35,169 nucleotides of DNA from Flavobacteriales bacterium. Its GTDB lineage: Bacteria > Bacteroidota > Bacteroidia > Flavobacteriales_F > PHOS-HE28. The stretch's first letter is position 1. Every line of letters starts with the position of its first letter. A model generated the notes under the pieces. That model did not search any database. It was not told the DNA's origin and was given only the letters and a program-made list of their open reading frames with translations. The translations under genes and the position numbers were made by a program. The stretch lies in contig JADLAI010000054.1 of the NCBI GenBank assembly GCA_020848295.1, positions 1 to 35,169 on the forward strand, given 5' to 3'. This document shows, in pieces, positions 11,624 through 35,107 of this stretch.

Positions 11624-11710
11624 CGGAGAGAGAGGGATTCGAACCCCCGTTACCCTTTCAGGTAAACACACTTTCCAGGCGTGCGCCTTAAACCACTCGG
11701 CCATCTCTCC
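11624..11710 (-). tRNA. tRNA-Ser (anticodon GGA)
   Basis: An 87-base class II tRNA on the minus strand. The acceptor stem GGAGAGA (11710-11704) pairs with TCTCTCC (11631-11625), with discriminator G at 11624. The D arm contains GCCGAGTGGTTTAAGGC. The anticodon stem CACGC/GTGTG encloses loop CTGGAAA, giving anticodon GGA for UCC/UCU. The long variable arm (TTACC-TGAAA-GGTAA) identifies serine. The T loop is TTCGAAT. The 3' CCA is not encoded (CCG follows), so it must be added by a nucleotidyltransferase. Confidence 0.97.
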
Positions 11711-32765: not shown

Positions 32766-33326
32766 ATGATCGACACCACCGCCGCACTGAAGACCTGCGA
32801 AGAACACATGCGCAAAGCCGTTGAGCACCTGGACAACGAGCTGCAGAAGATCCGCGCAGGAGCCGCCACGCCCAGCATGCTCGAAAGCGTGCGCGTGGAC
32901 TACTACGGCCAGATGGTGCCGCTTTCGCAGGTCGCCTCCGTGAACACGGGCGATGCGCGCACGCTGTTCGTGAAGCCCTGGGAGAAGAAGATGATCGACG
33001 CCATCGAGAAGGCGATCATCGGTGCCAACCTTGGCTTCAACCCAAGCAACAACGGCGAAAGTGTGATCATCCACGTGCCCATGCTCACCGAGGAGCGTCG
33101 CAAGGCCCTGTCAAAGGCCGCGCATGCCGAAGGGGAACATGCCAAGGTCGGTATCCGCAGCAGCCGTCAGAAAGCGATGGAGACGATCAAGGCGGCGAAG
33201 AAGGATGGCCTGCCCGAGGATGCCGCTAAAGGCTTGGAAGGCGATGTGGAGAAACTCACCGGCACCTACAACAAGAAGGTGGATGCGCTGATCGAGGCGA
33301 AGGAGAAGGATATCATGAAGGTGTGA
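32766..33326 (+). CDS. frr: Ribosome recycling factor
   Basis: RRF splits post-termination ribosomes together with EF-G. The protein is 186 residues, the family size. It starts with the helical CEEHMRKAVEHLDNELQKIR and the highly conserved AGAATPSMLESVRVDYYGQM. VASVNTGDARTLFVKPWEKK, IEKAIIGANLGFNPSNNGES and VIIHVPMLTEERRKALSKAA follow, and the long C-terminal helix ends VDALIEAKEKDIMKV. ATG 32766 fits the family N-terminus and follows a perfect promoter box. The stop is followed by a 593-base gene-free region; no terminator with a T tract was found after it. Confidence 0.98.
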   Translation: MIDTTAALKTCEEHMRKAVEHLDNELQKIRAGAATPSMLESVRVDYYGQMVPLSQVASVNTGDARTLFVKPWEKKMIDAIEKAIIGANLGFNPSNNGESVIIHVPMLTEERRKALSKAAHAEGEHAKVGIRSSRQKAMETIKAAKKDGLPEDAAKGLEGDVEKLTGTYNKKVDALIEAKEKDIMKV

Positions 33327-33919
33327 TAGACACGGCTCCCCGGTCGTCCTGCACCCTTCAGTCCACGCCACCGGTTCTGCACGGCGTGATACTTTCCAGT
33401 CGTCCTTCCGTGCTGGTCTGCTGTCTCGATCACGGATCGGTGGTATTCCAGAAGTTGAACCGCCCGGAATTGTTGATGCAGTCGGGCGGCGTTTATACCA
33501 TCTACGCATTCAATACCAGCCGATCCACTTGGCCTCTTTCCGGATGCCTTCTCCGCGAAACAGGTTCTGTAGGCCCCGCTACGCAACCTGTTTCGCGTAT
33601 CGTCCTCCGAAAAGATCACGGCGCGGCTCTTGGCCGGCCTTGAATGCGTAAATGGTATTACAGGATCAATGCAGCTGACCGCACGTTCCAAGCGAAGGGT
33701 CGGACAATGATCCCATGGAGCACTGATCAGGTCGGGAGATAACCTTCTTTTCGCTGGACCACCCGAAGAGGTCGCAGGTGGCCGAGCCACGAGGCGAACT
33801 CCTCGGTGAGGTCATGCTGAAGGTGAGCTGGCGGATCGGACAGCCCTGGGGTCCATCATGGTATCGGGCGTATAGCCATATTCGGGAGCACCGCCACGAC
33901 CGGTCGATCCCAAGGACGC
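33327..33919. other. Gene-free region between frr and the GIN-domain gene
   Basis: 593 bases between two converging genes. Open frames of about 100 and 174 codons exist here, but they have no recognised domain and run through the inverted repeats, so I do not call them. The region holds a 7-bp hairpin (CCGCCCG 33460-33466 with CGGGCGG 33483-33489), then the nested inverted repeat at 33495-33658. From 33659 to 33919 I see nothing recognisable. A decayed gene or a small mobile element are both possible. Confidence 0.55.
33495..33658. repeat. 164-base nested inverted repeat
   Basis: Outer arms: 19 bases at 33495-33513 (ATACCATCTACGCATTCAA) and their inverse at 33640-33658 with one mismatch. Inner arms: 13 exact bases CGCGAAACAGGTT (33554-33566) and AACCTGTTTCGCG (33585-33597), around a 4-bp stem GTAG/CTAC (33569-33572/33579-33582). 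The 40- and 42-base connecting stretches also share partial inverse similarity (CTTTCCGGATG against CTTTTCGGAGG). All share nearly the same centre, 33575-33577. It looks like a MITE-like or REP-like element, or a large hairpin. Confidence 0.8.
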
Positions 33920-35107
33920 CTACCTGTCCTCGTCCTCCATGACCCCTCGTGACCTTTTGTGGCCAGCGCTCCCGGTGTTATGGATGGTACCTGAACCCGT
34001 TTTCACGGACTCCAGGTGCCCGCTACAGTCCAAGTAGGCATCGCCGGATCCCATCAGGTTCACCTTGCCACTTCCCGCCATCAGGTTCTCCGCATGCACG
34101 GCACCACTGCCCATGATGTTCACCAGGATCCGATCGGTGGCGCCTGCCACTTGCACGTCCCCACTGCCCATCAGATCGATCGTGGTGGTGTTGGTCACTT
34201 CCAATTGAGCGCACAGCACATCTCCCGACCCTTGCACCTGGATGTTCATTTCCGTGGTTCCGATCGGACCTGCCATATCGATGTCACCCGAGCCCATCAC
34301 GGAGAGTTGAAGCGAAGGCGTGTTCTTGAACTCCGCCACATGGATGCTGCCCGAACCATGCACGATCAATTGTTCCAGGCGTGGGAGCCGCACGGTGATC
34401 AACACCTTCTCCATGCCCAGGTTTATACGGCGCCGAGTTTCGTGTTCGATGGACAGGATCCCTTGCTCCACCTTGATGTCGAGCATGTCCAATTGCTTTT
34501 GTTCGCCTTTGGCCACCACGGCGAATTCACCTTCCTCCACACGCACATCGGAACTGGATCGCAATGCGATGCCGTTGAAGCCGGACAGGTTGAAGATGCG
34601 CTCGTTGGCAACGGCCGCGGTCACCGTGGCCGGCGCTGGCATCGGTGCAGTGGTCTCTTGAACAGGAGTTCCGGATCCCGGGGTTTCCTTCGGCGCCTCG
34701 GTCTCCGTTTCCACGCGGAGGTCCTCGGTCCTCCGGTTCGCAGCAGGTACGACGGACGATCCTTGCTCGGGTCGGGGCAACGTCGGTGTGGCTGCGGTAA
34801 CGGTAGCTGCTGGCACGGCCGGTGTTCGAACCACGGTCTCATTCCTTCGTGGAACATCATCGGGGACCGGCGTGGCCGCTGGTGTGCTTCCTGAAAAGAG
34901 GTAGAGGCCGGTGCCAAGGAGAAGAGTGCCTATGGTGGTCATGAGCAAGGTGTTCAGGTTGAATTTCAACGTATGGATCAGCCAGGCTACGGCGCCCATG
35001 CCCAAGGGGAATGCGGCCACCATGTCCTGCACCTGTTCCAAGCTGACCTCCGGGGGCAGTTCACGCAACGGGGCGAGTACGGCTTGTTCTTCCTCTGCGC
35101 GGTTCAT
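33920..35107 (-). CDS. GIN-domain (DUF2807) membrane-anchored protein
   Basis: A 395-residue protein in three parts. Residues 1-45 are a short cytoplasmic segment (AVLAPLRELPPEVSLEQVQD). A membrane helix follows (about 52-70, NTLLMTTIGTLLLGTGLYLF). A Thr/Pro/Ala-rich periplasmic linker (about 73-165) leads to a GIN/DUF2807 beta-helix-like domain (about 168-380). The domain shows the repeated turn GSGD/GSGS: VHGSGSIHVAEF, VMGSGDIDMAG, VQGSGDVLCA, LMGSGDVQVAG, IMGSGAVHAEN, LMGSGDAYLDC and KTGSGTIHNTG. Such domains are common in Bacteroidota, often described as adhesin heads, with no proven function. The start overlaps the stop of an upstream gene (ATGA, 35104-35107). The N-terminal arrangement resembles single-pass anti-sigma factors, but that is inference. 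Confidence 0.85.
   Translation of the reverse strand: MNRAEEEQAVLAPLRELPPEVSLEQVQDMVAAFPLGMGAVAWLIHTLKFNLNTLLMTTIGTLLLGTGLYLFSGSTPAATPVPDDVPRRNETVVRTPAVPAATVTAATPTLPRPEQGSSVVPAANRRTEDLRVETETEAPKETPGSGTPVQETTAPMPAPATVTAAVANERIFNLSGFNGIALRSSSDVRVEEGEFAVVAKGEQKQLDMLDIKVEQGILSIEHETRRRINLGMEKVLITVRLPRLEQLIVHGSGSIHVAEFKNTPSLQLSVMGSGDIDMAGPIGTTEMNIQVQGSGDVLCAQLEVTNTTTIDLMGSGDVQVAGATDRILVNIMGSGAVHAENLMAGSGKVNLMGSGDAYLDCSGHLESVKTGSGTIHNTGSAGHKRSRGVMEDEDR

Follow-up and report, generated by a model that had tools for sequence, protein, structure and literature searches.

The frr locus and its palindrome

The window analysed here is the whole 35,169-nucleotide stretch of contig JADLAI010000054.1 from a Flavobacteriales bacterium. 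Near its right end, frr (32767-33326, plus strand; Pfam RRF, 3.3e-59), which encodes ribosome recycling factor, converges with a gene for a DUF2807/DUF4097 adhesin-like protein (33920-35107, minus strand). A preliminary description of the gap between these genes had reported nested coaxial inverted repeats at 33495-33658, and both pairs are present. The outer pair joins 33495-33521 with 33632-33658 (27 nt, 85% complementary) and the inner pair, coaxial with it, joins 33554-33572 with 33579-33597 (19 nt, 89%). The borders given there were nearly right, the body of the element lying slightly inside them at 33496-33657. It is 162 bp long, begins with TACC, ends with GGTA, and is flanked by TTA on the left (33493-33495) and on the right (33658-33660), assigned from the sequence and the duplication rule described below as the two copies of the target site.

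Terminal inverted repeats of ~30 bp form the ends of the element. The left repeat (33496-33525, plus strand) consists of the outer TACC and an inner CCAGCCGATC, and the right repeat (33628-33657) reads TACCATTTACGCATTCAAGGCCGGCCAAGA on the minus strand. At the centre lies an apical stem-loop (33554-33597, minus strand) built from the inner arms; its core, GTTGCGTAGCGGGGCCTAC, is the most conserved part of the element, and its lower stem covaries. The minus strand is the better-folding, hereafter structured, strand, and it runs the same way as the DUF2807 gene, downstream of which it is placed. A second, decayed copy occupies the same intergenic region in the opposite orientation (33707-33866, structured strand plus; covariance-model match of 44.3 bits, E = 2e-7).

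No T tract or terminator-like site was found at the palindrome, in keeping with the earlier judgement that it is not an ordinary terminator. A search with 4227 Rfam models returned no match to the element even at E <= 5. The only Rfam match within the window is a tRNA gene (11624-11710, minus strand).

A dispersed family inserted at TNA

Searching the genome of origin (2.59 Mb in 254 contigs, 66% complete) and related genomes recovered a repeat family. Similar DNA was found at ~40 loci of the genome of origin. A covariance model built from 31 copies matched 63 sequences there, a ceiling set by the number of candidates scored, and the family comprises at least 60 copies. The same model found matches in 30 of the 45 genomes of the genus, so that the palindrome is not the single, unconserved copy that would have reduced it to chance or decayed sequence. 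The closest of the loci in the genome of origin, at C25, is 98% identical to the window copy, which indicates recent activity, and another species (G043) has a near-identical copy (159 of 161 letters). Outside the genus, the element was detected in only two sampled genomes of the class, G156 and G242. The conserved core had no match among viral contigs. A coding reading was set aside because copies align over their full length with frame-breaking indels.

Several variants were recorded. Long forms (L086, at 641-900, L211 and L212) have additional sequence in one mid-arm or in both. The left-hand and right-hand insertions of L086 are mutually complementary, and its hairpin has thus grown symmetrically. 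A 67-bp derivative (L045, G000:C39:5963-6029) has lost its interior and retains just the two terminal repeats. Six copies (L024, L027, L028, L029, L031 and L041) are chimeric, joining left and right ends of different subfamilies, which points to gene conversion or to recombination among copies. The flanks of such chimeras are often unequal.

Across the family, copies start with TACC, end with GGTA and are flanked by TNA on each side. The flanking triplets were identical in 22 of 33 copies with intact ends, compared to ~11 expected (p = 1.4e-4), and the middle base is variable. One copy, on contig C154, sits inside a TAA stop codon; three sister genomes (G060, G011 and G002) share this converging gene pair but show one stop codon there and lack the element, and thus preserve the empty site. 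Stop codons as such are not preferred: 18 of 59 copies lie in a neighbour's TAA or TGA stop, compared to 19.3 expected from TNA sites in gaps of matching type. The element was found at frr in none of the 29 frr neighbourhoods fetched from other genomes, where the gap is not alignable beyond frr and only the absence of the element can be stated. Dispersal, terminal repeats, target duplication and an empty site, together with the transposase described below, bear out the earlier suggestion of a MITE-like element.

Copies are mostly downstream of genes. Among 84 copies from the genome of origin (G000), from G003 and from relatives, 35 are flanked by converging genes and 7 by diverging genes, gaps that account for 13% and 33% of intergenic bases, respectively, in a small background sample of 51 gaps with home-made gene calls. 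Between tandem genes, 29 copies have the structured strand in sense orientation to the upstream gene and 13 have it in antisense orientation (p = 0.02). This pattern can also come from the purging of harmful insertions.

A probable IS630-family partner

A gene for an IS630-family transposase (NCBIfam NF033545; PF13358) was traced from an orphan end in G043. A complete insertion sequence is present in G012 (1189 bp, terminal repeats TACCATTTGGAATTAAA, TAA/TAA duplication) and another in G293, which belongs to a different family (1162 bp, TTA/TTA duplication). In nearly all relatives with a readable end, the transposase gene leads at its 3′ end into GGTA and then TNA; the exceptions are one G242 sequence with CGTA and one contig that ends too early. 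The transposase gene appears to be split by a frameshift. Two IS630-family genes (L083 and L089) comprise two overlapping frames beside a T run (A on the coding strand), an arrangement suggestive of programmed frameshifting.

The ends of the elements resemble those of the insertion sequences. The right terminal repeat of the window element shares 24 of 30 letters with the end of the G043 IS630-family element, and over 30 letters the best agreement between elements and insertion sequences reaches 28, whereas shuffled ends do not exceed 20. Every element of group g1 is nearest to a g1 insertion sequence end and every one of f41 to an f41 end. All g1 elements but one weak case agree well with g1 ends, although some that have diverged score only 15-20, no better than shuffled; in this second Bacteroidota family the ends of both partners differ from those of the genus and again match each other. 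Moreover, both G156 and G242 carry the insertion sequence, which occurs in only five sampled genomes (rough p = 4e-4). It was found in only 2 of the 45 genomes of the genus and not in the 66% complete assembly that contains the window, and we therefore infer mobilization in trans from the matching ends and the co-occurrence. Other candidate partners were rejected: no DDE_Tnp_1 (IS4/IS5-type) gene suited to the role was found in the genome of origin, and no other IS630-type gene of the genus has TACC...GGTA ends.

A conserved hairpin and its interpretation

The preliminary description had proposed folding the region, and on both strands the 169-nt stretch gives a much more stable fold than its dinucleotide shuffles, with RNA parameters (z = -8.4 on the plus strand; z = -9.7, -92.2 kcal/mol on the minus strand) as well as with DNA parameters (z = -6.9 and -9.2, respectively). 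The body forms a single long hairpin that is conserved in both families. In an alignment of 54 copies from both families, fitted to the covariance model, 92.6% of cells are paired and 41 of 52 pairs show change on both sides; the covariation score is 0.525, compared to 0.198 after shuffling and at most 0.10 when the structure is slid. An independent MAFFT alignment of 31 copies agrees (0.401 compared to 0.183). The G156 copies have a GC content of 28-30%, compared to ~54% here, so that most of the stem sequence has been replaced, whereas the loops have changed less. Consistent with this, consensus identity between the families is 72% at unpaired and 56% at paired positions. The earlier view that the diverged middle is left over from an old and formerly more perfect palindrome is incorrect, since the unpaired stretches are internal loops conserved in other species and in the second family.

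The consensus fold is more stable on the structured strand, which is the minus strand of the window (-78 compared to -34 kcal/mol). Prediction on a single strand biases the fold towards G-U pairs on that strand, and pair types were therefore recounted with strand-neutral pair sets. Among shared pair types the ratio of G-U to A-C is 36:14 with the union set (p = 0.003) and 18:8 with the intersection set (p = 0.08), a moderate strand preference. Among private pair types it is 18:17 and 15:12, respectively; a first count of private changes had given 18 G-U to 16 A-C, with pairs broken freely. Pairing is thus better preserved in changes common to several copies than in private ones, which suggests selection on the fold during the spread of the element. 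In our reading, which distinguishes source lineages from private changes by counts rather than a full tree, copies would decay freely after insertion and the spreading lineages would keep the fold. The fold therefore seems to matter to the element itself. With strong covariation and one strand favoured, the structured RNA raised in the preliminary description stands as a possibility.

Taken together, these results support a model that we regard as highly probable, in which the element is a MITE mobilized by an IS630-family transposase, with a hairpin selected in the spreading lineages. A transposase encoded elsewhere would recognize the ~30-bp terminal repeats and insert the MITE at TNA, duplicating three bases. 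The gene-free interior would form an imperfect hairpin of ~165 nt and, on landing downstream of a gene, the usual place, would be transcribed as a 3′-untranslated stem. Selection for the fold would act on spreading element lineages, not on individual insertion sites. That a functional folded RNA serves the element's own propagation, perhaps by rendering insertions harmless to the upstream gene or through an interaction with the transposase or an RNase, is a more tentative proposal.

The main alternative to an action as RNA is a hairpin of single-stranded DNA, extruded at the replication fork, that joins the ends and aids transposition. DNA parameters predict the same fold (z = -9.2 on the minus strand), and the better preservation of pairing in shared than in private changes is what a property needed for movement would leave; however, neither the conserved unpaired motifs nor the sense placement downstream of genes is predicted, and IS630-type elements normally move as double-stranded DNA. 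We consider this possible, if rather unlikely. The palindrome could instead be a by-product in an ordinary MITE, where template switching self-corrects the arms and yields paired changes free of structural selection. Two-sided changes in DNA palindromes can indeed arise in one step, and the private changes look unconstrained (18 G-U to 16 A-C). Self-correction, however, would erase mismatched loops, which persist in two families at 72% identity compared to 56% for paired positions, nor would it favour G-U over A-C on one strand, making this explanation improbable.

Selection by the host at each site, with the hairpin serving as a regulatory RNA (an RNase III site, a 3′-end stabilizer or a terminator), would fit the sense bias of 29:13 and the enrichment between converging genes. 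It is difficult to reconcile with private changes that break pairs freely, with the absence of the frr copy from all other genomes checked and with the lack of a T tract or terminator-like site, and we judge it very improbable. The REP-like palindrome considered in the preliminary description fits poorly: the element is short, palindromic, extragenic and present in many copies, as expected of REP/REPIN sequences spread by a RAYT tyrosine transposase, but at 162 bp, with ~30-bp terminal repeats, a 3-bp target duplication and ends matching an IS630-family element, it is not a 20-40 bp unit. Such an origin is extremely unlikely.

The closest known kinds of element are RUP, ERIC, NEMIS and YPAL. 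RUP of pneumococcus is likewise small, non-coding and intergenic, with terminal repeats that match an IS630-family element, IS630-Spn1 (PMC2229807), but it is 107 bp long and uses TA, whereas the element described here has 162 bp, TNA and a hairpin with compensatory change across two families. Correia/NEMIS and ERIC are also dispersed intergenic MITEs with terminal repeats and long RNA hairpins; they differ in their TA ends, hosts and sequences, and no partner transposase is tied to them in that review of the subject (PMC2229807). YPAL, or RU-2, of Yersinia has nearly the same length (~168 bp), is palindromic and intergenic, and is thought to affect upstream transcripts (PMC2229807, PMC2759123), but its ends carry no terminal repeats and it duplicates 3-26 bp at dyad sites, unlike the fixed TNA duplication and terminal repeats seen here. 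While the textbook target duplication of IS630 is TA (PMC2229807), the subgroup to which the putative partner belongs, with the same NF033545 transposase, duplicates TNA in both MITE and insertion sequence copies. A literature search, in which subscription journals were not covered, found nothing on TNA with IS630 or on IS630 MITEs in Bacteroidetes. The TNA duplication and the structure shared across families set this element apart from these known kinds.

From its sequence, the element is best classified as a MITE that belongs to an IS630 subgroup duplicating TNA; its hairpin is conserved and has a putative function. These data point to such a subgroup within the IS630 family and supply matched pairs of insertion sequence and MITE for a transposition assay. 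MITEs of bacteria are commonly regarded as dead remnants, with hairpins that are a mere consequence of the repeats. Here the fold appears to be kept in the spreading lineages of two families as dead copies decay freely, so that one can test whether the hairpin helps the element to move or survive. If the proposed RNA role is true, this would be a gene-free mobile element that is selected as RNA and conserved between bacterial families.
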